Part shown: positions 61 to 58,074 of the stretch, piece after piece
How the letters are laid out: each line of letters opens with the position of its first letter
How positions within the stretch are numbered: position 1 is the first letter of the stretch
Assembly (NCBI GenBank): GCA_963920525.1
Contig: OY986437.1
Coordinates: 30,423,063-30,487,062, forward strand
DNA length: 64,000 nucleotides
Source: Dichetophora obliterata
Taxonomy: Eukaryota > Arthropoda > Insecta > Diptera > Sciomyzidae
Direction of reading: 5' to 3'
The notes under the pieces: model-generated
Told to the model about the DNA's origin: nothing
Seen by the model: only the letters and a program-made list of their open reading frames with translations
The model's database searches: none
Program-made: the position numbers and the translations under genes

Positions 61-3001
61 TAAAACTACATATCAGATAAGGACGATTCATGCATTAAAA
101 TGAGCACCAGGTCCTCGTCCTTAAGAAGGGATACTCCTTTGTCCAAATGCCGTTTGCTCTATCTCTTGTAGTTTAGGAGTTGTAGAACACTTTTTGGAGT
201 GGTAGCTGGCCAAAAACATGTGCTTTTTCCGTCATAACTCCCAAACCATACATCCTACAAGGACGATTTATACACCAAATTGTTTCTAATACATATAAAC
301 ACAAGACTGCATATTCAGAAAAAAGTTTTCTGGAATTTGATTTTTTTTCAAGAATCTTAGTTAAAATTTTTTACATGAATCATAGTTTTTGACGTGGTTT
401 TTTGCGATTTTTTTTATTTTTTAGCCATAACTTCTAAACCATACATCATAAAAGGACGATTTATGCATCAAAATGTTCCTTAAGCTACTGCCCACAAGAC
501 TGTATCCTTAAAATAATTTTAAAAATTTAATTTCATGTTAATTTCATGTGCCCTTTTTTGTCAATTTTTATTTTTTTTATTTATTTTCTAGCACCAGGTC
601 CTCGTCCTTAAGTAGGGTTACTTCTGTGTCCAAATGTATTTTGCTCTATCTCTTGTAGTTTAGGAGTTGTAGAACACTTTTTGGAGTGGTAGCTGGCCAA
701 AAACATGTGCTTTTTCCGTCATAACTCCCAAACCATAAATCCTACAAGGACGATTTATACACCAAATTGTTTCTAATACACATATACACAAGACTGCATA
801 TTCAGAAAAAAGTTTTCTGGAATTTGATTTTTTTTCAAGAATCTTAGTTAAAATTTTTTACATGAATCATAGTTTTTGACGTGGTTTTTTGCGATTTTTT
901 TTATTTTTTAGCCATAACTTCTAAACCATACATCATAAAAGGACGATTTATGCATCAAAATGTTCCTTAAGCTACTGCCCACAAGACTGTATCCTTAAAA
1001 TAATTTTAAAAATAAGATTTCATGTTAATTTCATGTGCCCTTTTTTGTCAATTTTTATTTTTTTTATTTATTTTCTAGCACCAGGTCCTCGTCCTTAAGT
1101 AGGGTTACTTCTGTGTCCAAATGTATTTTGCTCTATCTCTTGTAGTTTAGGAGTTGTAGAACACTTTTTGGAGTGGTAGCTGGCCAAAAACATGTGCTTT
1201 TTCCGTCATAACTCCCAAACCATACATCCTACAAGGACGATTTATACACCAAATTGTTTCTAATACATATATACACAAGATTGCATATTCAGAAAAAAGT
1301 TTTCTGGAATTTGATTTTTTTTCAAGAATCTTAGTTAAAATTTTTTACATGAATCATAGTTTTTGACGTGGTTTTTTGCGATTTTTTTGATTTTTTAGCC
1401 ATAACTTCTAAACCATACATCATAAAAGGACGATTTATGCATCAAAATGTTCCTTAAGCTACTGCCCACAAGACTGTATCCTTAAAATAATTTTAAAAAT
1501 TAGATTTCATGTTAATTTCATGTCCCCTTTTTTGTCAATTTTTATTTTTTTTATTTATTTTCTAAAATAAAAACTACATATCAGATAAGTACGATTCATG
1601 CATTAAAATGAGCACCAGGTCCTCGTCCTTAAGAAGGGATACTCCTTTGTCCAAATGCCGTTTGCTCTATCTCTTGTAGTTTAGGAGTTGTAGAACACTT
1701 TTTGGAGTGGAAGCTGGCCAAAAACATATGCTTTTTCCGTCATAACTCCCAAACCATACATCCTACAAGGACGATTTATACACCAAATTGTTTCTAATAC
1801 ATATATACACAAGACTGCATATTCAGAAAAAAGTTTTCTGGAATTTGATTTTTTTTCAAGAATCTTAGTTAAAATTTTTTACATGAATCATAGTTTTTGA
1901 CGTGGTTTTTTGCGATTTTTTTGATTTTTTAGCCATAACTTCTAAACCATACATCATAAAAGGACGATTTATGCATCAAAATGTTCCTTAAGCTACTGCC
2001 CACAAGACTGTATCCTTAAAATAATTTTAAAAATTAGATTTCATGTTAATTTCATGTGCCCTTTTTTGTCAATTTTTATTTTTTTTATTTATTTTCTAAA
2101 ATAAAAACTACATATCAGATAAGGACGATTCATGCATTAAAATGAGCACCAGGTCCTCGTCCTTAAGAAGGGATACTCCTTTGTCCAAATGCCGTTTGCT
2201 CTATCTTTTGTAGTTTAGGAGTTGTAGAACACTTTTTGGGGTGGAAGCTGGCCAAAAACATGTGCTTTTTCCGTCATAACTCCCAAACCATACATCCTAC
2301 AAGGACGATTTATACACCAAATTGTTTCTAATACATATATACACAAGATTGCATATTCAGAAAAAAGTTTTCTGGAATTTGATTTTTTTTCAAGAATCTT
2401 AGTTAAAATTTTTTACATGAATCATAGTTTTTGACGTGGTTTTTTGCGATTTTTTTGATTTTTTAGCCATAACTTCTAAACCATACATTATAAAAGGACG
2501 ATTTATGCATCAAAATGTTCCTTAAGCTACTGCCCACAAGACTGTATCCTTAAAATAATTTTAAAAATTATATTTCATGTTAATTTCATGTGCCCTTTTT
2601 TGTCAATTTTTATTTATTTTCTAAAATAAAAACTACATATCAGATAAGGACGATTCATGCATTAAAATGAGCACCAGGTCCTCGTCCTTAAGAAGGGATA
2701 CTCCTTTGTCCAAATGCCGTTTGCTCTATCTCTTGTAGTTTAGGAGTTGTAGAACACTTTTTGGAGTGGTAGCTGGCCAAAAACATGTGCTTTTTCCGTC
2801 ATAACTCCCAAACCATACATCCTACAAGGACGATTTATACACCAAATTGTTTCTAATACATATATACACAAGATTGCATATTCAGAAAAAAGTTTTCTGG
2901 AATTTGATTTTTTTTCAAGAATCTTAGTTAAAATTTTTTACATGAATCATAGTTTTTGACGTGGTTTTTTGCGATTTTTTTGATTTTTTAGCCATAACTT
3001 C

Positions 3002-3118
3002 TGGAAAGTTTTCTGGAATTGGATTTTTTTTCAAGAATCTTAGTTAAAATTTTTTACATGAATCATAGTTTTTGACGTGGTTTTTTGCGATTTTTTTGAT
3101 TTTTTAGCCATAACTTCT
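3002..3118. repeat. 117-bp internal duplication in one monomer
   Basis: The monomer starting at 2671 is 651 bp instead of 534. The stretch from AAGTTTTCTGG to the AGCCATAACTTCT box (about 2890-3001) is repeated directly at 3002-3118 with one base change. This is a partial-monomer duplication, as expected from slippage or unequal exchange inside an array. Confidence 0.85.
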
Positions 3119-6100
3119 AAACCATACATCATAAAAGGACGATTTATGCATCAAAATGTTCCTTAAGCTACTGCCCACAAGACTGTATCCTTAAAATAAT
3201 TTTAAAAATTAGATTTCATGTTAATTTCATGTGCCCTTTTTTGTCAATTTTTATTTTTTTTTATTTATTTTCTAAAATAAAAACTACATATCAGATAAGG
3301 ACGATTCATGCATTAAAATGAGCACCAGGTCCTCGTCCTTAAGAAGGGATACTCCCTTGTCCAAATGCCGTTTGCTCTATCTTTTGTAGTTTAGGAGTTG
3401 TAGAACACTTTTTGGGGTGGAAGCTGGCCAAAAACATGTGCTTTTTCCGTCATAACTCCCAAACCATACATCCTACAAGGACGATTTATACACCAAATTG
3501 TTTCTAATACATATATACACAAGATTGCATATTCAGAAAAAAGTTTTCTGGAATTTGATTTTTTTTCAAGAATCTTAGTTAAAATTTTTTACATGAATCA
3601 TAGTTTTTGACGTGGTTTTTTGCAATTTTTTTGATTTTTTAGCCATAACTTCTAAACCATACATTATAAAAGGACGATTTATGCATCAAAATGTTCCTTA
3701 AGCTACTGCCCACAAGACTGTATCCTTAAAATAATTTTAAAAATTAGATTTCATGTTAATTTCATGTGCCCTTTTTTGTCAATTTTTATTTTTTTTATTT
3801 ATTTTCTAAAATAAAAACTACATATCAGATAAGGACGATTCATGCATTAAAATGAGCACCAGGTCCTCGTCCTTAAGAAGGGATACTCCTTTGTCCAAAT
3901 GCCGTTTGCTCTATCTTTTGTAGTTTAGGAGTTGTAGAACACTTTTTGGGGTGGAAGCTGGCCAAAAACATGTGCTTTTTCCGTCATAACTCCCAAACCA
4001 TACATCCTACAAGGACGATTTATACACCAAATTGTTTCTAATACATATATACACAAGATTGCATATTCAGAAAAAAGTTTTCTGGAATTTGATTTTTTTT
4101 CAAGAATCTTAGTTAAAATTTTTTACATGAATCATAGTTTTTGACGTGGTTTTTTGCGATTTTTTTGATTTTTTAGCCATAACTTCTAAACCATACATTA
4201 TAAAAGGACGATTTATGCATCAAAATGTTCCTTAAGCTACTGCCCACAAGACTGTATCCTTAAAATAATTTTAAAAATTAGATTTCATGTTAATTTCATG
4301 TGCCCTTTTTTGTCAATTTTTATTTTTTTTATTTATTTTCTAAAATAAAAACTACATATCAGATAAGGACGATTCATGCATTAAAATGAGCACCAGGTCC
4401 TCGTCCTTAAGAAGGGATACTCCTTTGTCCAAATGCCGTTTGCTCTATCTCTTGTAGTTTAGGAGTTGTAGAACACTTTTTGGGGTGGAAGCTGGCCAAA
4501 AACATGTGCTTTTTCCGTCATAACTCCCAAACCATACATCCTACAAGGACGATTTATACACCAAATTGTTTCTAACACATATATACACAAGATTGCATAT
4601 TCAGAAAAAAGTTTTCTGGAATTTGATTTGTTTTCAAGAATCTTAGTTAAAATTTTTTACATGAATCATAGTTTTTGACGTGGTTTTTTTGCGATTTTTT
4701 TGATTTTTTAGCCATAACTTCTAAACCATACATTATAAAAGGACGATTTATGCATCAAAATGTTCCTTAAGCTACTGCCCACAAGACTGTATCCTTAAAA
4801 TAATTTTAAAAATTAGATTTCATGTTAATTTCATGTGCCCTTTTTTGTCAATTTTTATTTTTTTTATTTATTTTCTAAAATAAAAACTACATATCAGATA
4901 AGGACGATTCATGCATTAAAATGAGCACCAGGTCCTCGTCCTTAAGAAGGGATACTCCTTTGTCCAAATGCCGTTTGCTCTATCTCTTGTAGTTTAGGAG
5001 TTGTAGAACACTTTTTGGAGTGGAAGCTGGCCAAAAACATATGCTTTTCCGTCATAACTCCCAAACCATACATCCTACAAGGACGATTTATACACCAAAT
5101 TGTTTCTAATACATATATACACAAGACTGCATATTCAGAAAAAAGTTTTCTGGAATTTGATTTTTTTTCAAGAATCTTAGTTAAAATTTTTTACATAGTT
5201 TTTGACGTGGTTTTTTGCGATTTTTTTGATTTTTTAGCCATAACTTCTAAACCATACATCATAAAAGGACGATTTATGCATCAAAATGTTCCTTAAGCTA
5301 CTGCCCACAAGACTGTATCCTTAAAATAATTTTAAAAATTAGATTTCATGTTTATTTCATGTCCCCTTTTTTGTAAATTTTTATTTTTTTTATTTATTTT
5401 CTAAAATAAAAACTACATATCAGATAAGTACGATTCATGCATTAAAATGAGCACCAGGTCCTCGTCCTTAAGAAGGGATACTCCTTTGTCCAAATGCCGT
5501 TTGCTCTATCTTTTGTAGTTTAGGAGTTGTAGTACACTTTTTGGAGTGGAAGGTGGCCAAAAACATATGCTTTTTCCGTCATAACTCCCAAACCATACAT
5601 CCTACAAGGACGATTTATACACCAAATTGTTTCTAATACATATATACACAAGACTGCATATTCAGAAAAAAGTTTTCTGGAATTTGATTTTTTTTCAAGA
5701 ATCTTAGTTAAAATTTTTTACATGAATCATAGTTTTTGACGTGGTTTTTTGCGATTTTTTTGATTTTTTAGCCATAACTTCTAAACCATACATCATAAAA
5801 GGACGATTTATGCATCAAAATGTTCCTTAAGCTACTGCCCACAAGACTGTATCCTTAAAATAATTTTAAAAATTAGATTTCATGTTAATTTCATGTGCCC
5901 TTTTTTGTCAATTTTTATTTTTTTTATTTATTTTCTAAAATAAAAACTACATATCAGATAAGGACGATTCATGCATTAAAATGAGCACCAGGTCCTCGTC
6001 CTTAAGAAGGGATACTCCTTTGTCCAAATGCCGTTTGCTCTATCTTTTGTAGTTTAGGAGTTGTAGAACACTTTTTGGGGTGGAAGCTGGCCAAAAACAT

Positions 6101-7579
6101 GTGCTTTTTCCGTCATAACTCCCAAACCATACATCCTACAAGGACGATTTATACACCAAATTGTTTCTAATACATATATACACAAGATTGCATATTCAGA
6201 AAAAAGTTTTCTGGAATTTGATTTTTTTTCAAGAATCTTAGTTAAAATTTTTTACATAGTTTTTGACGTGGTTTTTTGCGATTTTTTTGATTTTTTAGCC
6301 ATAACTTCTAAACCATACATTATAAAAGAACGATTTATGCATCAAAATGTTCCATAAGCTACTGCCCACAAGACTGTATCCTTAAAATAATTTTAAAAAT
6401 TAGATTTCATGTTAATTTCATGTGCCCTTTTTTGTCAATTTTTATTTTTTTTATTTATTTTCTAAAATAAAAACTACATATCAGATAAGGACGATTCATG
6501 CATTAAAATGAGCACCAGGTCCTCGTCCTTAAGAAGGGATACTCCTTTGTCCAAATGCCGTTTGCTCTATCTCTTGTAGTTTAGGAGTTGTAGAACACTT
6601 TTTGGAGTGGAAGCTGGCCAAAAACATGTGCTTTTTCCGTCATAACTCCCAAACCATACATCCTACAAGGACGATTTATACACCAAATTGTTTCTAATAC
6701 ATATATACACAAGACTGCATATTCAGAAAAAAGTTTTCTGGAATTTGATTTTTTTTCAAGAATCTTAGTTAAAATTTTTTACATGAATCATAGTTTTTGA
6801 CGTGGTTTTTTGCGATTTTTTTGATTTTTTAGCCATAACTTCTAAACCATACATTATAAAAGGACGATTTATGCATCAAAATGTTCCTTAAGCTACTGCC
6901 CACAAGACTGTATCCTTAAAATAATTTTTAAAATTAGATTTCATGTTAATTTCATGTGCCCTTTTTTGTCAATTTTTATTTTTTTTATTTATTTTCTAAA
7001 ATAAAAACTACATATCAGATAAGGACGATTCATGCATTAAAATGAGCACCAGGTCCTCGTCCTTAAGAAGGGATACTCCTTTGTCCAAATGCCGTTTGCT
7101 CTATCTTTTGTAGTTTAGGAGTTGTAGAACACTTTTTGGGGTGGAAGCTGGCCAAAAACATGTGCTTTTTCCGTCATAACTCCCAAACCATACATCCTAC
7201 AAGGACGATTTATACACCAAATTGTTTCTAATACATATATACACAAGACTGCATATTCAGAAAAAAGTTTTCTGGAATTTGATTTTTTTTCAAGAATCTT
7301 AGTTAAAATTTTTTACATGAATCATAGTTTTTGACGTGGTTTTTTGCGATTTTTTTGATTTTTTAGCCATAACTTCTAAACCATACATTATAAAAGGACG
7401 ATTTATGCATCAAAATGTTCCTTAAGCTACTGCCCACAAGACTGTATCCTTAAAATAATTTTTAAAATTAGATTTCATGTTAATTTCATGTGCCCTTTTT
7501 TGTCAATTTTTATTTTTTTTATTTATTTTCTAAAATAAAAACTACATATCAGATAAGGACGATTCATGCATTAAAATGA

Positions 7580-10500
7580 GCACCAGGTCCTCGTCCTTAA
7601 GAAGGGATACTCCTTTGTCCAAATGCCGTTTGCTCTATCTTTTGTAGTTTAGGAGTTGTAGAACACTTTTTGGGGTGGAAGCTGGCCAAAAACATGTGCT
7701 TTTTCCGTCATAACTCCCAAACCATACATCCTACAAGGACGATTTATACACCAAATTGTTTCTAATACATATATACACAAGACTGCATATTCAGAAAAAA
7801 GTTTTCTGGAATTTGATTTTTTTTCAAGAATCTTAGTTAAAATTTTTTACATGAATCATAGTTTTTGACGTGGTTTTTTGCGATTTTTTTGATTTTTTAG
7901 CCATAACTTCTAAACCATACATTATAAAAGGACGATTTATGCATCAAAATGTTCTTTAAGCTACTTTTCACACGACTGTATCCTTAAAATAATTTTAAAA
8001 ATTAGATTTCATGTTAATTTCATGTCCCCTTTTTTGTAAATTTTTATTTTTTTTATTTATTTTCTAAAATAAAAACTACATATCAGATAAGTACGATTCA
8101 TGCATTAAAATGAGCACCAGGTCCTCGTCCTTAAGAAGGGATACTCCTTTGTCCAAATGCCGTTTGCTCTATCTTTTGTAGTTTAGGAGTTGTAGTACAC
8201 TTTTTGGAGTGGAAGCTGGCCAAAAACATATGCTTTTTCCGTCATAACTCCCAAACCATACATCCTACAAGGACGATTTATACACCAAATTGTTTCTAAA
8301 ACATATATACACAAGACTGCATATTCAGAAAAAAGTTTTCTGGAATTTGATTTTTTTTCAAGAATCTTAGTTAAAATTTTTTACATGAATCATAGTTTTT
8401 GACGTGGTTTTTTGCGATTTTTTTGATTTTTTAGCCATAACTTCTAAACCATACATCATAAAAGGACGATTTATGCATCAAAATGTTCCTTAAGCTACTG
8501 CCCACAAGACTGTATCCTTAAAATAATTTTAAAAATTTAATTTCATGTTAATTTCATGTGCCCTTTTTTGTCAATTTTTATTTTTTTTATTTATTTTCTA
8601 AAATAAAAACTACATATCAGATAAGGACGATTAATGCATTAAAATGAGCACCAGGTCCTCGTCCTGGAAGGAAGGAAAGAAGGGATACTCCTTTGTCCAA
8701 ATGCCGTTTGCTCTATTTTTTGTAGTTTAGGAGTTGTAGAACACTTTTTGGGGTGGAAGCTGGCCAAAAACATGTGCTTTTTCCGTCATAACTCCCAAAC
8801 CATACATCCTACAAGGACGATTTATACACCAAATTGTTTCTAATACATATATACACAAGATTGCGATCCTAAAAGGACGATTTATACACCAAATTGTTTC
8901 TAATACATGTATACACAAGATTGCATATTCAGAAAAAAGTTTTCTGGAATTTGATTTTTTTTCAAGAATCTTAGCTAAAATTTTTTACATGAATCATAGT
9001 TTTTGACGTGGTTTTTTGCGATTTTTTTGATTAACTCCCATTTAGCCATAACTTCTAAACCATACATTATAAAAGAACGATTTATGCATCAAAATGTTCC
9101 TTAAGCTACTGCCCACAAGACTGTATCCTTAAAATAATTTTAAAAATTAGATTTCATGTTAATTTCATGTGCCCTTTTTTGTCAATTTTTATTTTTTTTA
9201 TTTATTTTCTAAAATAAAAACTACATATCAGATAAGGACGATTCATGCATTAAAATGAGCACCAGGTCCTCGTCCTTAAGAAGGGATACTCCTTTGTCCA
9301 AATGCCGTTTGCTCTATCTCTTGTAGTTTAGGAGTTGTAGAACACTTTTTGGAGTGGAAGCTGGCCAAAAACATGTGCTTTTTCCGTCATAACTCCCAAA
9401 CCATACATCCTACAAGGACGATTTATACACCAAATTGTTTCTAATACATATATACACAAGACTGCATATTCAGAAAAAAGTTTTCTGGAATTTGATTTTT
9501 TTTCAAGAATCTTAGTTAAAATTTTTTACATGAATCATAGTTTTTGACGTGGTTTTTTGCGATTTTTTTGATTTTTTAGCCATAACTTCTAAACCATACA
9601 TTATAAAAGGACGATTTATGCATCAAAATGTTCTTTAAGCTACTTTTCACACGACTGTATCCTTAAAATAATTTTAAAAATTAGATTTCATGTTAATTTC
9701 ATGTCCCCTTTTTTGTAAATTTTTATTTTTTTTATTTATTTTCTAAAATAAAAACTACATATCAGATAAGTACGATTCATGCATTAAAATGAGCACCAGG
9801 TCCTCGTCCTTAAGAAGGGATACTCCTTTGTCCAAATGCCGTTTGCTCTATCTTTTGTAGTTTAGGAGTTGTAGTACACTTTTTGGAGTGGAAGCTGGCC
9901 AAAAACATATGCTTTTTCCGTCATAACTCCCAAACCATACATCCTACAAGGACGATTTATACACCAAATTGTTTCTAAAACATATATACACAAGACTGCA
10001 TATTCAGAAAAAAGTTTTCTGGAATTTGATTTTTTTTCAAGAATCTTAGTTAAAATTTTTTACATGAATCATAGTTTTTGACGTGGTTTTTTGCGATTTT
10101 TTTGATTTTTTAGCCATAACTTCTAAACCATACATCATAAAAGGACGATTTATGCATCAAAATGTTCCTTAAGCTACTGCCCACAAGACTGTATCCTTAA
10201 AATAATTTTAAAAATTTAATTTCATGTTAATTTCATGTGCCCTTTTTTGTCAATTTTTATTTTTTTTATTTATTTTCTAAAATAAAAACTACATATCAGA
10301 TAAGGACGATTAATGCATTAAAATGAGCACCAGGTCCTCGTCCTGGAAGGAAGGAAAGAAGGGATACTCCTTTGTCCAAATGCCGTTTGCTCTATTTTTT
10401 GTAGTTTAGGAGTTGTAGAACACTTTTTGGGGTGGAAGCTGGCCAAAAACATGTGCTTTTTCCGTCATAACTCCCAAACCATACATCCTACAAGGACGAT

Positions 10501-10937
10501 TTATACACCAAATTGTTTCTAATACATATATACACAAGATTGCGATCCTAAAAGGACGATTTATACACCAAATTGTTTCTAATACATGTATACACAAGAT
10601 TGCATATTCAGAAAAAAGTTTTCTGGAATTTGATTTTTTTTCAAGAATCTTAGCTAAAATTTTTTACATGAATCATAGTTTTTGACGTGGTTTTTTGCGA
10701 TTTTTTTGATTAACTCCCATTTAGCCATAACTTCTAAACCATACATTATAAAAGGACGATTTATGCATCAAAATGTTCCTTAAGCTACTGCCCACAAGAC
10801 TGTATCCTTAAAATAATTTTAAAAATTAGATTTCATGTTAATTTCATGTGCCCTTTTTTGTAAATTTTTATTTTTTTTATTTATTTTCTAAAATAAAAAC
10901 TACATATCAGATAAGGACGATTCATGCATTAAAATGA
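7580..10937. repeat. Higher-order repeat: 1,679-bp trimer duplicated in tandem
   Basis: Three consecutive monomers (534, 534 and 611 bp) at 7580-9258 recur in the same order at 9259-10937. Shared rare variants prove the block was copied as a unit: CTACTTTTCACACG in the first monomer, CAGATAAGTACGATT before the second, and in the third a GGAAGGAAGGAAAG insertion, a 60-bp internal duplication (8865-8924 and 10544-10603) and an AACTCCCAT insertion. A few point differences remain, for example AAAAGAACG against AAAAGGACG near 9070 and 10749. A related 60-bp duplication occurs at 11145-11204. Confidence 0.88.
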
Positions 10938-13900
10938 GCACCAGGTCCTCGTCCTTAAGAAGGGATACTCCTTTGTCCAAATGCCGTTTGCTCTATCTTT
11001 TGTAGTTTAGGAGTTGTAGAACACTTTTTGGGGTGGAAGCTGGCCAAAAACATATGCTTTTTCCGTCATAACTCCCAAACCATACATCCTACAAGGACGA
11101 TTTATACACCAAATTGTTTCTAATACATATATACACAAGATTGCGATCCTACAAGGACGATTTATACACCAAATTGTTTCTAAAACATATATACACAAGA
11201 CTGCATATTCAGAAAAAAGTTTTCTGGAATTTGATTTTTTTTCAAGAATCTTAGTTAAAATTTTTTACATGAATCATAGTTTTTGACGTGGTTTTTTGCG
11301 ATTTTTTTGATTTTTTAGCCATAACTTCTAAACCATACATTATAAAAGGACGATTTATGCATCAAAATGTTCCTTAAGCTACTGCCCACAAGACTGTATC
11401 CTTAAAATAATTTTAAAAATTAGATTTCATGTTAATTTCATGTGCCCTTTTTTGTCAATTTTTATTTTTTTTATTTATTTTCTAAAATAAAAACTACATA
11501 TCAGATAAGGACGATTCATGCATTAAAATGAGCACCAGGTCCTCGTCCTTAAGAAGGGATACTCCTTTGTCCAAATGCCGTTTGCTCTATCTCTTGTAGT
11601 TTAGGAGTTGTAGAAAACTTTTTGGAGTGGAAGCTGGCCAAAAACATGTGCTTTTTCCGTCATAACTCCCAAACCATACATCCTACAAGGACGATTTATA
11701 CACCAAATTGTTTCTAATACATATATACACAAGACTGCATATTCAGAAAAAAGTTTTCTGGAATTTGATTTTTTTTCAAGAATCTTAGTTAAAATTTTTT
11801 ACATGAATCATAGTTTTTGACGTGGTTTTTTGCGATTTTTTTGATTTTTTAGCCATAACTTCTAAACCATACATTATAAAAGGACGATTTATGCATCAAA
11901 ATGTTCCTTAAGCTACTGCCCACATGACTGTATCCTTAAAATAATTTTTAAAATTAGATTTCATGTTAATTTCATGTGCCCTTTTTTGTCAATTTTTATT
12001 TTTTTTATTTATTTTCTAAAATAAAAACTACATATCAGATAAGGACGATTCATGCATTAAAATGAGCACCAGGTCCTCGTCCTTAAGAAGGGATACTCCT
12101 TTGTCCAAATGCCGTTTGCTCTATCTTTTGTAGTTTAGGAGTTGTAGAACACTTTTTGGGGTGGAAGCTGGCCAAAAACATGTGCTTTTTCCGTCATAAC
12201 TCCCAAACCATACCTCCTACAAGGACGATTTATACACCAAATTGTTTCTAATACATATATACACAAGATTGCATATTCAGAAAAAAGTTTTCTGGAATTT
12301 GATTTTTTTTCAAGAATCTTAGTTAAAATTTTTTACATGAATCATAGTTTTTGACGTGGTTTTTTGCGATTTTTTTGATTTTTTAGCCATAACTTCTAAA
12401 CCATACATCATAAAAGGACGATTTATGCATCAAAATGTTCCTTAAGCTACTTTTCACACGACTGTATCCTTAAAATAATTTTAAAAATTAGATTTCATGT
12501 TAATTTCATGTGCCCTTTTTTGTCAATTTTTATTTTTTTTATTTATTTTCTAAAATAAAAACTACATATCAGATAAGGACGATTCATGCATTAAAATGAG
12601 CACCAGGTCCTCGTCCTTAAGAAGGGATACTCCTTTGTCCAAATGCCGTTTGCTCTATCTTTTGTAGTTTAGGAGTTGTAGAACACTTTTTGGGGTGGAA
12701 GCTGGCCAAAAACATGTGCTTTTTCCGTCATAACTCCCAAACCATACCTCCTACAAGGACGATTTATACACCAAATTGTTTCTAATACATATATACACAA
12801 GATTGCATATTCAGGAAAAAGTTTTCTGGAATTTGATTTTTTTTCAAGAATCTTAGTTAAAATTTTTTACATGAATCATAGTTTTTGACGTGGTTTTTTG
12901 CGATTTTTTTTATTTTTTAGCCATAACTTCTAAACCATACATTATAAAAGGACGATTTATGCATCAAAATGTTCCTTAAGCTACTGTTCACAAGACTGTA
13001 TCCTTAAAATATTTTTAAAAATTAGATTTCATGTTAATTTCATGTGCCCTTTTTTGTCAATTTTTATTTTTTTTATTTATTTTCTAAAATAAAAACTACA
13101 TATCAGATAAGGACGATTAATGCATTAAAATGAGCACCAGGTCCTCGTCCTGGAAGGAAGGAAAGAAGGGATACTCCTTTGTCCAAATGCCGTTTGCTCT
13201 ATTTTTTGTAGTTTAGGAGTTGTAGAACACTTTTTGGGGTGGAAGCTGGCCAAAAACATGTGCTTTTTCCGTCATAACTCCCAAACCATACATCCTACAA
13301 GGACGATTTATACACCAAATTGTTTCTAATACATATATACACAAGACTGCATATTCAGAAAAAAGTTTTCTGGAATTTGATTTTTTTTTCAAGAATCTTA
13401 GTTAAAATTTTTTACATAGTTTTTGACGTGGTTTTTTGCGATTTTTTTGATTTTTTAGCCATAACTTCTAAACCATACATCATAAAAGGACGATTTATGC
13501 ATCAAAATGTTCCTTAAGCTACTTTTCACACGACTGTATCCTTAAAATAATTTTAAAAATTAGATTTCATGTTAATTTCATGTGCCCTTTTTTGTCAATT
13601 TTTATTTTTTTTATTTATTTTCTAAAATAAAAACTACATATCAGATAAGGACGATTAATGCATTAAAATGAGCACCAGGTCCTCGTCCTTAAGAAGGGAT
13701 ACTCCTTTGTCCAAATGCCGTTTGCTCTATCTTTTGTAGTTTAGGAGTTGTAGAACACTTTTTGGGGTGGAAGCTGGCCAAAAACATGTGCTTTTTCCGT
13801 CATAACTCCCAAACCATACATCCTACAAGGACGATTTATACACCAAATTGTTTCTAATACATATATACACAAGACTGCATATTCAGAAAAAAGTTTTCTG

Positions 13901-14096
13901 GAATTTGATTTTTTTTTCAAGAATCTTAGTTAAAATTTTTTACATAGTTTTTGACGTGGTTTTTTGCGATTTTTTTGATTTTTTAGCCATAACTTCTAAA
14001 CCATACATCATAAAAGGACGATTTATGCATCAAAATGTTCCTTAAGCTACTGCCCACAAGACTGTATCCTTAAAATAATTTTAAAAATTAGATTTC

Positions 14097-15529
14097 CCTT
14101 CATAAAATAAACTAATAACTTGTAAATGTTTAATAAAAAAAAAACAACATCGTTTCAATATATGCTATTATACAATTATATAAATTATACTCACATGAAA
14201 TTTTACTCAAAAGTAATATATATGAAATAATTCATATATATTATGAATGTTTAAAACTGTATATATATATTATGTTTAAAACTGTTTATTTTTAAAATGT
14301 TTAAAATGCTTAAAACCAACCAATTAAGAAATGCATGACAAAAATGCTCACAACAAATTTCGTCACAATATTACATTTGTACAAAATTATTCTAATAAAT
14401 GTTAAAATTTTTATCATTGCATTTTAATTAAGTGATAAACAAAGTATATAAAAATATATAAAAAAATAAAATGTTCTAAATGAAATTGTTTTACTCGGAT
14501 TAGTTATATACATTTCAACATAAAATCGGTCTGAAATAAATATTTTATTATAACGAAATGGAATTCTTAAATTTTTTCCAATTGAATCAAAATATACTTT
14601 TGATTATGCTTGCAGGGTTTTCTGATTGGGCAGATAGGTATATTTTTGTTGGTGGTTTAAGATAACCTAATAAGAATACTAATAAAATTATAAGTATATG
14701 TGTATATAATAATAAATATAATATTAATATATATCTATACTATTCTATACTACAATATATATATATATATACATGCATCTACGATCAATGGTTTTGTCGT
14801 AAAATTGACATTTTAATAAAAAATAAAATCATTTTCTTAAATAAATTTCTTAAAATAAAATCATGACTGCTTGTAACTTTGGTATCTTTTAATAAAATAC
14901 CTATATAAAAACCATTTCAACAACATTAAAGCAAATGGGTAACAAGCAATTTTCTTCTCTTCATGAAAAAAAAAAAACATATTTGCAACTCCTTATTAAA
15001 GAATAATTATTTCTTTAGCCGAATCTGAATTCCGTCTTTTTATTCGGCTAATGAAAAAATTATTATTTGCAGATGCAACCAAAATCTAGCTAGAATAAAA
15101 TCGCAACAACAATGTCCAGCTAGAAACAACATCAATTCGTCAAACACAAGAAGATCCCAAAAATTAACACAAAAAAATAAGCTGTAAAAGTTGTGGCAAA
15201 TAGAAGTTACATTTTCATTCACATACATACTTATAATATTGTTTTCTTCTCCTTTCGTTACTTGTCGTATTCATTTTCATGTTTACTTCTTCTTACTCAC
15301 AGCAATGCGTCAATAACGAGTACAAAAACTCGTTGGTTGTCATTGTTTTGGTTTTTCTGTCGGTGGATGGCTGATAGTCTGGAAAGAAGTTGGAACGCTG
15401 GATGAAGCAATCTCTTGGTATAATTTATACTCGTTGTATATAATTTAATTTAGTGATTTTTAACATTAACATCATTTTCACTGAAAAATTTTTCAAGTTT
15501 TTCTAAGGAAAAGTCACTTAGAAAAACTT
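14097..15529. other. AT-rich spacer, no gene seen
   Basis: Very AT-rich unique-looking sequence with an (AT)n tract near 14755-14772. Open frames are short and show no recognisable domain. I see no RNA gene or transposon terminus. Confidence 0.6.
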
Positions 15530-28484: not shown

Positions 28485-28580
28485 CATGGCAGAATAACCA
28501 GGTAGGGCCGACTCGGAGAGGAATGAAGTAGAAAGCAGAAAAAAGCGAGCTAGTTGTCAAATACAGCTGTTCTTGTCGAG
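28485..28580. mobile_element. Orphan end of CATGGCAGAAT hAT MITE
   Basis: Starts CATGGCAGAATAACCAGG and matches, over about 95 bp, the inverted right end of the element at 57299-58066, including GAATGAAGTA and GCGAGCTAGTTGTCAAA. The opposite end is missing here, so the copy is truncated. It lies 78 bp from the Transib element. Confidence 0.7.
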
Positions 28581-28657
28581 TAAAAATTAAGAACATCTAA
28601 AAAAATTTCAGCTTACTGAACCAACAACAATTACCAAGCAAATCTAAAACAGCGACG

Positions 28658-28684
28658 CACTGTGGGATTTTGGCTGCAAAAACC
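28658..28684 (+). other. Transib left terminus, 12-RSS-like signal
   Basis: Heptamer CACTGTG at 28658-28664, an 11-bp spacer, then GCAAAAACC at 28676-28684. The vertebrate RAG signal consensus is CACAGTG plus ACAAAAACC separated by 12 or 23 bp. The nonamer-like box matches at 8 of 9 positions. The heptamer matches at 6 of 7 and keeps the essential CAC. Confidence 0.65.
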
Positions 28685-29388
28685 CCCTTTTTTGAGTGTA
28701 AAATATCAAAAATGTAATGATGCAGTTTTGTAGAGAATTGTTTAATTAAGATAAATTCATCATACAATTTTTTCTACAATTTTTTTTTTTACAAAATAAC
28801 GCGGTAAAGTCACCTAAACGAAATTCTGCAGTAACTGCCTTAGATTTTCATCCCATTTCAATGGGCTGGAAACATAATTTCTTTTTCTCGTATCTATATG
28901 ATGTAAGAATATTTGAAAAATATAGTATTTCAGCATTAATTTAGAAGTAAAGGAATTGCATTACCGTAATGTTTTAATATATATTTAGGTTCTTTTTTGA
29001 AGGCACTCAAAAAGTCAGTGTTTTTAGTTTTTCTTGGACAAAAAAAAGGTGAGCGTTATCGATCGTTGTGTTCTGGTTGCAAAAAAATGAAAGGTGGGAC
29101 TGTCTTCTTTAAATTTACTCAAAAAAATCCACCAACTTTTCTCAATATTTTACAAACGCATAAATTTTATAAAAAAAGTCAATAGTAGTACAACGAAATT
29201 TTGCAATTAAATGTAATAAAAAAAGTGTGCCTACTTTTAGGCATACACTTTAGCAACAATTTGTTAATAACTGATTGACAGCAATTCCAAAGAAAAGCAT
29301 AACAAAATAAAAAACAAAAACATATGATTAGGTAAATAAAATTTGGTAGACCAAAAGTGTAATAAAATTGTGAAAAATAATTATTAAA

Positions 29389-31295
29389 ATGAGTTCATTT
29401 TCTGTATCATATCATGAATTGTGTATGGAACTTATTAACTGTGGTAATAATGTTAATTTATTAACGGATTTTATAAAAGCAAAAAACTCGGTGCTTACGA
29501 TTAATGAAATCAAAATAGTGACAAAAAACATTCATTAGCGATTTCTTGGTAATTTTTGTAAACGCTGGGCGGAATCGCACAAAATAAAAGCGTATTTCTT
29601 TCAGAAAAATGATGTCTGGCTAAAAAGTAAGTTGCTAAACAAAAATCATTTATTGCTAACTTTGTAAACCATAACAAATTTTTTTAAGATATATTTGAAG
29701 TATCACTTGCTGATGATCAACCTTGTTGTTCAAGGAACAAGGGAAGGCCAGTTAAGGAATTCGATGATTGCAAATATCGTAGTAAAAGCTGCCGATTTAA
29801 CATCCCAGTACAGCCAACAACAATTAAAAATGGCAAGTGGAGTTACCGACTCAAAAATTAAATCATTTTCATATATTCCTTCGTCTACTGCGCTAGCGTT
29901 ATTGCTGGATGCAGAGTTAACAAAACATCAATACGAAACAATAAAAAATGTTTTGAAAGGAGAGGGATATGATATTTTACCACCTTATATAAAGGTATCT
30001 GAGGAGAAGAAAAAATGTTATCCCAATGAAATCCGAGTATCAGAAAAGGAAGCGTCTGCAAGCTTGCAAAGTATGATGGATCACACCACAAAGCGTCTCT
30101 TTGAAAGTTTTTCAAGCGAAAAGGTTAATGGTATGACAAATTCAAATTACACTCTTACGTCGAAGTGGGGTTGCGATGGTTCTTCGGGTCATGCAGAGTA
30201 CAATCAGAGTTTGCCACCTGATGTCAGCGATAGAAGTCTGCTATTAGCATCGATGGTGCCTTTAAGTTTGAAAACAAACACTGAAGAAGAACAATGGCGC
30301 AATAAAAGTCCATCATCAACAAGGTATTGTCGACCACTTTTCTTCGAATTTACTAAGGAGACTAAACAAAAAGTGTTAACCGTTGTTGAGAACATTAAAT
30401 CAGATATTGCTGCTTTGGGGAAAACGAATGTTGAAGTATTCGGCAAACAGTTCAATGTAACGCACAATTTAGTATTTACGATGCTAGATGGAAAAACGGC
30501 TCAGACAATTACAGGTACAGCTTCATGCGCCGTATGTTACATTTGTAATGCAAAGCCCTCTGAAATGAACCATTTGGACAAAATTTCAATGAGGCTTGTA
30601 AATTGGGCATTTCGTCATTACACGCCCGAATAAAATTTATGGAATGTATACTCCATATAGCGTATAACTTGCCTTTTCAAAAGTGGTCTGCGATCGAAGC
30701 AAGAAATAAGATTTTAAAACAAGAGAACAAGGATCGAATTCAGACGGCATTTAAAGAAAGAATGAATTTGAGAGTGGATGCTGTACAACAAGGATCTGGC
30801 ACTTCGAACAATGGCAATACCTCAAGGCGTTTCTTCTCCAATCCTGCACTTGTTGCTGATATAACTGGTGTTAATGAAGAACTAATAGATCGCTTCCGAA
30901 TCATTCTGCAGATAATAACGTGTGGACAGAAAGTTGATAGTGTGAAGTTTCAAAAATTTGCATGGGATACAGCTGAGCTATTTGTTCAAAAATATAAGTG
31001 GTACTTTATGCCTGTAACTGTGCATAAAGTACTTATACATGGAAAGGACATTATTGATGCAGCAGTACTTCCTATTGGTATGCTATCCGAGGAAGCAGAA
31101 GAAGCACGCAATAAAGATTACAGAAACTATAGATTAATGTTTTCTAGAAAGTGCAATAGAACTGCAACAAATACTGATGTTTTCCATCGTCTGCTTGCAT
31201 CATCTGATCCATATATAAGTAGTATAAGACGTCAGCCGCATAAAAATCTATTAGAACTAGATGATGTAGTTAAAGAAATGATAGTTGAAGAATAA
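29389..31295 (+). pseudogene. Transib transposase (RAG1-core-like), disrupted
   Basis: A DDE recombinase that would cut and paste the element. Exon 1 runs from ATG 29389 to 29626 and exon 2 from 29689 to TAA at 31293-31295. The 62-bp intron has GTAAGT and TTTTTAAG boundaries, and the frame is kept across it. Lesions are TAG at 29536-29538 (codon 50), a frameshift near 29795-29805 after a GRPVKEFDDCKYRSK segment, and a second near 30580-30600. Key RAG1-type residues can be placed by eye. The first Asp is in KWGCDGSSG (30175-30177, equivalent to D600). The second is in FTMLDGKT (30487-30489, D708). A CxxC finger follows at CYICNAKP, and two His in VHKVLIHGKDI match RAG1 H937/H942. The Glu is in SEEAEEARNK (31101-31103, E962). 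Segments such as STRYCRPLFFEF and RMNLR...GNTSRRFF also follow the RAG1 core order. No RAG2-like gene is nearby. Some lesions could be assembly errors. Confidence 0.93.
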
Positions 31296-31765
31296 AATTT
31301 ATAATTTATAATATAATTTTATAGTACAAATTTGACTTTTATTTGCAATGATTGGTTAATTAAAAAAAAAACGCTAAGCCATGGCCCCCTAATTTTTTTT
31401 GCAAATGTTCAGCTAACATATTAGTCTTTAGTTATTTATATAGATGTAAGTGCTGCTTGGCATCGATCACAAACTACAAAGGCTTAAATCTGTTTTTTTG
31501 AAAATCGTGAAAAATTAAATTTATCATATGGGCGTTGGGCGTGGCACTTAAAATTTTAATATAATTGAGGACTCAAATGCAACCACTGGTAGTAATTTTT
31601 ATTAATATACATATGAAAATAAGGAAAATACAACGTCTTTTAGTTTTACGTCATATGGGAGGTAGGCGTGGTTGTGGGCGGATTTTAACAAAAATTTATT
31701 TTTCATCTAATTTGGCAATATGAGAGATGTGTGCCAAATTTCAAAGCCCTACCTCGATTCCTTCG

Positions 31766-31803
31766 ATTTTTTGCAGCAGCTTGTATGAAGAAATCCCACT
31801 GTG
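31766..31803 (-). other. Transib right terminus, 23-RSS-like signal
   Basis: Read inward on the minus strand: CACAGTG at 31803-31797 is identical to the vertebrate heptamer consensus. A 22-bp spacer follows, then GCAAAAAAT at 31774-31766, which matches the nonamer consensus at 6 of 9 positions. The spacer is exactly 11 bp longer than at the left end. Confidence 0.6.
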
Positions 31804-31808
31804 CGACG

Positions 31809-35214: not shown

Positions 35215-35280
35215 CACAGTGGGACAGAGCCCTACTGATTCAACGAAATTGACTGTCTAGTCGTAGAATTTGAGCTAGTG
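35215..35280 (+). repeat. Transib-like terminal arm, left-facing copy
   Basis: Begins CACAGTGGGACAGAG and ends AATTTGAGCTAGTG. The start repeats the CAC(A/T)GTGGGA terminus of Transib-type elements. A matching inverted arm lies at 43982-44046 and shares CACAGTGGGAC and GTCGTA(A/G)AATTTGAGCTAGTG. The flanking pentamers (TGCCG and CACCG) do not agree, so the two arms may come from different copies. Confidence 0.55.
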
Positions 35281-39154: not shown

Positions 39155-40442
39155 TTGGGGGTTGGAATTAATTTTAAAGTTTTTTTTTAGGTTTTTGAGC
39201 ATTTATTTAGAAACAACGGTACAATGTATATTATTCAAAGTATTGTCCATCGTTAGCTACAACATTTTCCCATCTTTCTGGCAGCATATGGATTCCGCGC
39301 CGGAAGAACGATTCGTCTTTTGAGGCAGTCCACGAATCGACCCATTTTTTGGTATCCTCGTAAGAAGTGAAGCGCTGCTCAGCCAAGCCATGCGTCATCG
39401 ATCTGAATAGGTGGTAGTCGGAAGGGGCTATGTCTGGGCTATAAGGTGGGTGGGGTAGCACATCCCAATTCAGCGCCTCCAACGTTTCCTTGACGGTTCT
39501 TGCAACATGTGGCCGTGCGTTGTCATGTTGAAAAACCACTTTGTCGTGTCTTTTGGCATATTCCGGCCGTTTAACCTTTAATGCTCGGCTCAATTGCATC
39601 AATTGTTGTTGGTAGCGTTCCCCAGTGATGGTTTCGTTAGGTTTTAGCAGCTCATAGTACATGACACCCTTCTGATCCCACCAAATACACAGCATAAGCT
39701 TGGCGCCATGAATATTCGGCTTGGCCCTCGATGTTGATGCATGGCCGGGTGGTCCCCACGATTTTTTTCGCTTAGGATTATCGTAATGGATCCACTTTTC
39801 ATCGCCAGTGACAATACGATGCAAAAAACTCTTCCTTTTATGCCGTTGAAGCAGTTGTTCGCACATGCAAAATCGCCGTTCAACGTCTCTCGGCTTCAAC
39901 TGGTACGGCACCCAATTTCCTTGCTTTTGAATCATTCCCATGGCCTTCAAGCGTTTGCCGACTGTTGATAAGTCGACTCCCAATGATTCTGACAATTCTT
40001 AAAGGGTTTGACACGGGTCTTCATCGAGCAAAGCCTCCAATTCCTCATCTTCAAACTTTTTCGGCTGGCCCGGACGCTCTTTGTCTTCCGTATCAAAATC
40101 ACCACTTTTAAACCGACGGAACCAGTACTCACAAGTAGAAATCGATGGAGCATAGTCCCCGTAAGCCTCAGTAAGCGTGCGTTGGGCTTCAACCGCTTTT
40201 TTCTTCAAATGGAAGCACAAAAGTAAACCTTCCCGCAAATTGCGTTTTGTTGGAACGAAAGTCGACATGTTCACAGAGAAAAAAAATATATGTTGTTTAC
40301 ACTTCAGTGGAATGACACATACTAAAAAATGAAGCTTAGACAATGTGCTTTGAAATGAATATAGTCACAGGTGTGCCCGATGCGATCTATTGATAGTTAC
40401 GCCATCTCTTAGAAAACCTTTAAAACTAATTCCAACCCCCAA
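39155..40442 (-). mobile_element. mariner element, mauritiana-like, full length
   Basis: 1,288 bp between TA dinucleotides (39153-39154 and 40443-40444). The inverted ends are TTGGGGGTTGGAATTA plus about 9 further bp with one mismatch. It contains one transposase frame on the minus strand. Mos1 itself is 1,286 bp, so the size and architecture are complete. The single internal stop and the good termini suggest a young but dead copy. Confidence 0.97.
39231..40268 (-). pseudogene. mariner (Mos1-like) transposase with one in-frame stop
   Basis: Reading the minus strand from ATG at 40268, the product starts MSTFVPTKRNL and would be 345 residues, exactly Mos1's length. Codon 90 is TAA (40001-39999), between DEDPCQTL and ELSESLG. 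The frame is otherwise open to the stop near 39231. Residues 1-110 hold the paired helix-turn-helix DNA-binding region (CFHLKKKAVEAQRTL, STCEYWFRRFKSGDF). The catalytic triad is present: Asp156 in VTGDEKWIHY, the second Asp in FQHDNARPHVART, and the third in PPYSPDIAPSDYHLF, giving the DD34D pattern of mariners. The WVP linker motif is seen as GNWVPYQL. A single nonsense change, probably at a Lys or Gln codon, is the only obvious defect. Confidence 0.97.
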
Positions 40443-40935: not shown

Positions 40936-42470
40936 CCAAACTATATATTTATTCGTAGAGTTATGCTTATGTGTATACATACATTTTGTACATGCATATA
41001 CAAAAATTATATGCTGCATTTTTTTAAACATATTAATCTGGATTGTATGCGAATATTGTACGGATTTGGATGTTGGAAAAAACGCAGCTTTTATATATAT
41101 AATTTTCCTTTTATATTGTTTATTTGATTAGATCTTAGCCAAACATTAAAACATTGGTGGCTATTCTAAGACAATCAAGCAGAAAGCTTTTTATGCTGCC
41201 ATAAGAAACGCATGGTGGTAGAGAAGTGTAGCGTGGTTCTAATGTCACTATTACTTCCTAACAACTTTTTTATAAAAACCCTAAAGACTACTCATTCTTA
41301 CATCCGCATTCGTACTTTTCATTCCGTTTATCTTACTAGACATACATATCATAGCCTAGTGCTTGGCATAAGCATAAACAACAACAACAAAAACAACAAG
41401 AATAAAATTATGAAAACATTTTTTTTTTTTTGGATTCGCCCGCAGGTATGATATCTTCCAAAGATACGTATACCCGTCCTATACGCATGCACGATTTACA
41501 TTCTAAAATCTGCCCGAATCAGTCGGGACAGACAGAATGCACCTACGTACTAAAACATACCCCCTATTGGCAATTAGGATTTTCAACTAAGCACATTAAT
41601 TGGCTTTTCTAAAACGCGTATTTAAGTATACTTGATTCTATATAAATAAGCAACATCGAATTAAATAAAAGTAATTATCAATTTAAGGTACCCGAAATAC
41701 AATCAAAAACACTAAACACATTTTAACTGGTCTGCGGCCATTGTCCAACCCAAGGACCTACGTGGAAGCGAGATAAATCTCATATCCGCTAAATCAAAAT
41801 CCCAATTAGTTGGATATGCATTTGGGCCAACGCAGGCATAAACTTGTGTGGAAAAGAGATATACTCTGGCACACCAATCCAGGTGATAGTGTGAGTTCAG
41901 TCTAATTTCAAATCAGGAAACCACGTGAGCACGTAAATCCCAATTCGATTAAAAATTAAAATATTGAATAATTAAAAAGTAAGTTTTAAAAACGATTCAT
42001 ATTTGATGGTGCTTACTTTATAAAACATAATATTGCGACAAAAAAGAGAAACAGAACAATCTCAATTACCAATATTACATTGTTATAAAACTGCGTTAGG
42101 TATAATGAAGTTAAATTGATTTAATTTGAAAGGCAACACGAATGCACTTGTTGTTGTTGGCATTTTTTATTTCCATATGAAAAATTATGTATGCGATCGA
42201 CCAATATGAAATTAACTGGCGCTATGCGCTCGACATTAGAGACAAAAATAAGGAAGGAGTTTAGAAAATACTGGCAGAATAATTTTAAGAATAGTACTGG
42301 TAAATATTGTATATAAACTAAGATATTTTTTTAAAAAGACAGTTTTTAAAGAACAGGCGACACGTCTAAACGTAAAATTTAAATCTTTTTCTTATAAAAT
42401 TAGCCTTTGTGGCTAAAAACTAAAAAAAAACATAGCCTTGCGACTTATAATAAAATATAGCCTTTGTAGC
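40936..42470. other. Spacer with LTR-like promoter patch
   Basis: No gene. At about 41455-41690 a non-repetitive stretch has a TATA-like CTATATAAATAAGC (41638) followed by AATTAAATAAAAG. This recalls a solo LTR, but no TG...CA ends or target duplication could be fixed. 41700-41900 is moderately GC-balanced and unassigned. Confidence 0.35.
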
Positions 42471-57792: not shown

Positions 57793-58074
57793 AAATTGTA
57801 AATAGTGCGGACACGTGTGTTAAGTTTGTGTTAATTTGAATGAAGATATTATAAAAACAGTGTAAATAAAACTATAAAATGCCGAGGAAGTGTTCAATTT
57901 GCAAAAAAGCAAGAAAACAAGTTTAACCAAAAATCAACTGGTTATCAAAATAACCATGAACATAAAGAAACTCGAGATGAACAGCTGATTTTGACAACTA
58001 GCTCGCTTTTCTCTGCTTTTTACTTCATTCCTTTCCGAGTCGGCCCTACCTGGTTATTCTGCCATGCTCGCTGT

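Follow-up and report, generated by a model that had tools for sequence, protein, structure and literature searches.

A Transib transposon of Dichetophora obliterata with RAG-signal-like ends spaced 11 and 22 bp, a layout shared by four families of its genome

The Transib transposase is related to RAG1, the enzyme that shuffles the antibody genes of vertebrates. An earlier note on a 64,000-nucleotide stretch of Dichetophora obliterata DNA (the window) proposed that a Transib copy lying there carries a 12/23-like asymmetric pair of ends. PMC8355894 discusses two possible origins of the 12/23 rule, inheritance from a transposon or emergence along with RAG2. The locus raises two questions: does this copy have such a pair of ends, and is the pair anything other than chance?

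The element spans positions 28658-31803 (3,146 bp) and is the sole Transib in the window. The boundaries and end letters given in the earlier note proved exact. At the left end, on the plus strand, the heptamer CACTGTG (28658..28664) is followed by a spacer of 11 bp (28665..28675) and by the nonamer-like box GCAAAAACC (28676..28684). The right end, read inwards on the minus strand, consists of the heptamer CACAGTG (31797..31803), a spacer of 22 bp (31775..31796) in which CATAC and most of TTCATAC are kept in four families of this genome, and the box GCAAAAAAT (31766..31774). The element thus has the terminal inverted repeats starting with CAC and the 5-bp GC-rich target site duplication of a Transib, the latter being CGACG, read directly from the letters on both sides (28653..28657 and 31804..31808, no strand assigned). 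The two ends agree over their outermost 13 bases except at the heptamer centre, and the outer heptamer is accompanied by GGATTT; further in, a run of T occupies at the left end the place of a run of A at the right end. Compared with the vertebrate nonamer ACAAAAACC (letters taken from PMC8289069), the left box matches at 8 of 9 positions and the right box at only 6 of 9. With 11 and 22 bp in four families, the layout falls within the description of asymmetric-end Transibs (heptamer plus A-rich box, spacers of 12 ± 1 and 23 ± 1 bp) and outside that of a vertebrate RSS pair, which has spacers of 12 and 23 bp and ACAAAAACC nonamers. The comparison with 12/23 signals made in the earlier note therefore stands for the difference between the spacers, which is 11 bp in both cases, but not for the spacers themselves, each of which is one base pair shorter than in the RSS.

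The left flank of the element (28485-28581) belongs to an inverted repeat, 93% identical over 97 bp, whose partner lies at 57970-58066; since this flank repeat recurs elsewhere in the window, the Transib lies within or next to repeats of greater age. A search of the window for an empty site returned only partial flank repeats, none of which spans the insertion point. A second inverted end pair, starting CACAGTGGGAC at 35215 and 44046 (71% over 78 bp, 8.8 kb apart), is flanked by TGCCG and CACCG, hence by no duplication. It was considered as a further Transib copy and rejected because tblastn found no transposase in it and no GCA box was seen by eye at 11 or 22 bp. The ORF at 39231-39995 (minus strand) within this pair is, judging by its motif, what we take to be a mariner-like transposase. 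The window also contains a long tandem array of units of about 534 bp (103-14242; 29 listed places match one 300-bp stretch) and an R2 retroelement RNA (Rfam RF00524) at 41438-41627 on the minus strand, with 56.3 bits against a gathering threshold of 38.

The transposase gene lies on the plus strand. Its probable first coding exon, recognized by translation (29389..29626), has an in-frame stop in the window copy and is probably spliced to the main exon through a GT at 29627 and an AG at 29687-29688, which are in consistent phase. The main, RAG1-core-like exon (29689..31295) is covered by two overlapping ORFs, 29695-30633 and 30603-31295, which are in different frames, so that the gene is broken in this copy. 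Both ORFs match the HzTransib transposase (PDB 6pqn), with E 3.7e-43 for the first and 6.6e-69 for the second, and show a weak match to RAG1. The alignment places the catalytic residues D126, D225 and E436 of HzTransib (numbering of PMC6941560) at 30175..30177, 30487..30489 and 31101..31103, respectively, and the D, D, E set of a RAG1-core-like DDE transposase, another mark of Transib, is thus present. The window ORFs themselves fall under the cut-off of the Pfam RAG1 profile (second ORF, 16.1 bits, E 0.003); protein P0121, which is 93% identical to the first ORF over 83% of it, scores above the cut-off (28.2 vs 25). Named protein relatives include proteins of Bactrocera latifrons (74% identity over 47% of the query) and Rhagoletis (60% over 72%). 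Apart from the two transposase pieces, the only ORF of at least 80 residues within the element is an antisense ORF of 87 residues lying over them; no candidate for a RAG2-like gene was found by ORF length, a measure that small exons would escape. By this same measure the element is a single-gene Transib and lacks the linked RAG2-like gene of a ProtoRAG-type RAGL element. Transposase relatives were also sought in viral_contigs and genome_contigs, where none of the 17 and 117 pattern stretches, respectively, was confirmed by tblastn. Furthermore, a scan of viral_contigs for the end pattern gave five stretches (L001-L005) for the CACAGTG form, which by a rough estimate are due to chance, and none for the CACTGTG form.

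The earlier note had called for an alignment of both ends across the family. We searched the 1.31-Gb genome for copies of the same family (family A) and scored 40 of 527 first-look candidates, so that all family-A copy numbers are lower bounds. This yielded 33 further copies, of which 28 gave a single continuous match and 5 a fragmented or shortened one. CACTGTG followed by a box at 11 bp is present in all 34 copies, the window copy included, and the right box can be read at 22 bp in 32 of them. The two exceptions are L041, in which a deletion removed the box but left the heptamer and whose TGCCG duplication is perfect, and L046, which is truncated. The right heptamer of L031 contains a one-base gap. 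By script, 31 of the 34 copies have perfect target duplications, or 32 if the gap of L031 is allowed by eye; the duplication of L040 is off by one base, and L046 has no right end. The 31 perfect duplications are 72% GC and follow the pattern C-G-N-C-G (C in 23, G in 26, any base, C in 24, G in 25). Leaving out L046, the 33 copies differ from their consensus by 0.42% on average, with 0.54% in the left 45 bases and 0.40% in the right 45 bases, and 13 of 33 have a frame of at least 490 residues from a Met. Judged by this divergence, family A is a young burst that was recently mobile. Because its copies differ by only about 0.4%, they count as one observation, and because their ends vary as much as the rest, the copies alone show no constraint. 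Conservation within family A was therefore dropped as evidence.

More distant families of the same genome were reached by a search with the transposase P0124, in which 80 of 8616 first-look candidates were scored and 91 matches obtained. Those with readable ends make up, with family A, the four families compared here. Transposase identity among them is 46-72%; relative to A, it is 67% for B, 70% for C (via P0124) and 46% for E, the most distant. Two further elements, D1 (57% to P0124), initially regarded as a family of its own, and a 59% match, were not counted separately, as the ends of both are those of decayed B copies. Family B has CACAGTG, 11 bp and GCAATAAGT at the left, and CACAGTG, 22 bp and GCAAAAAAT at the right. 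The corresponding ends are CACTATG-11-TCAGAAACC and CACTATG-22-GCAAAAACT in family C, in which variants exist, and CACACTG-11-GCATTAATT and CACACTG-22-GCATTAAAT in family E, both boxes of which read GCATTA in place of GCAAAA. Among the left ends matched by script, a heptamer or near-heptamer lies 11 bp from the box in 12 of 14 for B (the remaining ends show a distance of 10 bp in one case and a box whose heptamer is lost in the other), and the 11-bp distance is seen in 3 of 3 for C and 2 of 2 for E. All right ends matched by script have 22 bp (B, 17 of 17; C, 5 of 5; E, 3 of 3). The script required an ungapped match of at least 72% to a family reference, so these counts favour kept spacing and under-count ends with altered spacing. 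In several elements of families B, C and E the left end was looked for and not found. Family E has a region similar to exon 1 in one uninterrupted frame, and its copy L079 offers a stop-free single-exon frame of 633 codons. In the window copy, a subterminal GGCGTGG-like block is repeated 127 bp apart (31524-31544 and 31651-31671), and in family B units of about 122 bp are tandemly repeated close to the right end.

The asymmetric pair proposed for the window copy is therefore supported, in that family A and the three others all have 11 and 22 bp. The earlier note had named a missing box or equal spacing at both ends as signs of chance, and neither was seen in any of the four families. At random anchors in the window, a box of at least 8 of 9 at 11-13 bp has P = 0.001, a box of at least 6 of 9 at 22-24 bp has P = 0.07, and the pair in either orientation has P = 0.00015. 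We also permuted the columns past base 13 jointly in the four families and took the best summed left-right similarity of 9-mers; a single permutation in 2000 reached the observed value, 28 of 36 (2/2000 with 12 letters, 1/2000 with 14). For family C, one decayed copy supplied the ends in this permutation and another copy those in the shuffles of single families. In the latter, with the offset preset to +11 from family A, 9-letter shuffles gave 0/3000 for A, 0.027 for B, 0.081 for C and 0.001 for E, and 11-letter shuffles gave 0/3000, 0.026, 0.009 and 0/3000, respectively. With the offset left free, the values were 0.002, 0.71, 0.99 and 0.06 for 9 letters, non-significant for B, C and E, and 0.004, 0.60, 0.41 and 0.004 for 11 letters; the best 9-letter match of family C falls at an offset other than +11. 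In the four-family alignment, the block holding the right box is the best conserved, with 10 of 15 columns identical. The block holding the left box, with 4 of 15, does not stand out from the remaining left blocks (0-6), and the agreement among A, B and C is higher further inward at the left end than it is at the box. The right-hand signal is thus firm. The left-hand signal is suggested by its fixed distance and by how closely it resembles the right box, the GCATTA of family E included.

A module that might read these boxes is found at the N-terminus of the predicted protein. A GRP motif is present in relatives, in the E copy L079 and in the translated reading frame of the window copy (29742..29750, plus strand, frame 29301), as part of a module resembling a nonamer-binding domain; it is missing in 5 of the 26 relatives whose N-terminus is long enough. 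The correspondence of this module to the RAG1 nonamer-binding domain is suggested only weakly by the alignments. A profile of the transposase relatives aligns to zebrafish RAG1 from GGRPR onward (10.3 bits, E 1.8 for this stretch alone), and the AlphaFold model of P0124 aligns from residues 18 and 16 to RAG1 391-1007 and 408-1029, respectively. In the structural alignment, only 4 of 30 RAG1 rows extend to the GRP end of the model, with an rmsd of 5 to 11 Å, as do two P-element rows. The solved HzTransib chains align to the P0124 model from residue 61 or 62 onward, leaving the GRP module uncovered. The closeness to HzTransib in this model alignment suggests membership in Transib Subgroup II, which PMC9435367 marks by a CTT2 tail and the loss of the α11-α12 region.

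The observations describe a Transib with two-part ends, spacers of 11 and 22 bp in four families, CGNCG-like duplications and a RAG1-core-like transposase with D, D and E. We think it probable that this is a cut-and-paste element with unequal two-part ends in which boxes shifted by one turn and held by the GRP modules favour the pairing of left with right. Each end would present an outer heptamer, together with GGATTT, and an inner GCA or A-rich box, 11 bp away at the left and 22 bp away at the right. The catalytic core would read the heptamer and cleave there, while the GRP modules of a transposase dimer would hold both inner boxes, whose separation of 11 bp, about one turn, would place them on roughly the same side of the helix. 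As for its function, which we infer, the asymmetry would make unlike ends, one left and one right, pair more readily than two ends of the same kind. Going further, it is possible, and we propose it tentatively, that the one-turn asymmetry is under selection and that a module resembling the nonamer-binding domain reads both boxes, so that a 12/23-like rule could exist without RAG2. This reading draws on the box changing jointly at both ends while 11 and 22 bp stay fixed.

The layout may also be real and merely inherited, from an ancestral block of 11 bp in the right end, with a left box that does little and transposition depending mainly on the outer heptamer and the bases next to it. This would agree with the left box not rising above the background between families, with the absence of visible constraint within family A, with the solved HzTransib chain aligning to the profile only from position 62, past the GRP module, and with the argument of PMC7204232 that invertebrate RAGL elements rely mainly on the terminal 15-17 bp. 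However, the exact 11 and 22 bp persist down to a transposase identity of about 46%, at which A and E agree at only 4-12 of 20 positions per full aligned block in their left non-coding DNA, and E carries the same altered box at both ends; we therefore hold inheritance alone to be unlikely. More doubtful still is that the right inner signal is no counterpart of a nonamer but a longer block (TTCATAC to GCAWWAAATATAAGGA) which, along with subterminal repeats, is recognized elsewhere in the transposase. The GCA box on the left would then be a different or partial site, and the ends would be unlike rather than copies shifted by one turn. Right-hand conservation does continue through the box into AAGGA, within the same 10 of 15 columns, and reappears about 136-150 bp in, where a GGCGTGG-like block is conserved in A, B, C and E (9 of 15 columns), but in A and E the letters of the left and right boxes, offset by 11, are nearly identical. 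That the A-rich boxes are chance products of AT-rich DNA (32% GC, with 7% of random anchors showing a match of 6 of 9 at 22-24 bp) is very unlikely because of the comparison between families, in which four share the same spacing, besides the low probabilities of the pair and of the column permutation.

Returning to the one-turn-shifted boxes, asymmetric Transib ends and a domain of the nonamer-binding type are already in print (PMC8355894, PMC9435367). PMC8355894 credits the 12/23 ± 1 asymmetry to Drosophila melanogaster Transib5 and several Anopheles elements (A. gambiae Transib2, N1, N2 and N3), citing the 2005 Transib paper; these likewise have RSS-like heptamers, A-rich boxes and a one-turn spacer difference. 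The present families are from another genome, have spacers of 11 and 22 bp and boxes of GCAAAA or GCATTA, and, compared with those elements by description rather than by alignment, may be identical to a named family. According to PMC9435367, TIRs are asymmetric in every Transib of Subgroup I and of both kinds in Subgroup II. According to PMC8289069, most Transib families are symmetric, and HzTransib of Helicoverpa zea has symmetric TIRs with little or no nonamer similarity. ProtoRAG (spacers of 27 and 31 bp; PMC8355894) and AanRAGL (spaces of 4 and 13 bp after a 13-bp element; PMC9435367) also have asymmetric two-part ends, but with other spacings and boxes and, as PMC9435367 describes them, with a RAG2-like gene. 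The likeness to the vertebrate system lies in the right heptamer CACAGTG, the left box, the one-turn difference and possibly the GRP module, whereas the 11/22 spacing, the weaker right box, the setting in a transposon rather than in dispersed signals and the lack of a RAG2-sized second ORF set the element apart.

The element is therefore a new Transib member of a kind already in print, with good comparative support, and adds a comparison of four families within one genome, among them a young family with open frames. Its bearing on the origin of the 12/23 rule hinges on whether unlike ends are preferred in pairing. With four families carrying boxes one turn apart, one of them young and with open frames, this question of origin becomes directly testable by cleavage assays.
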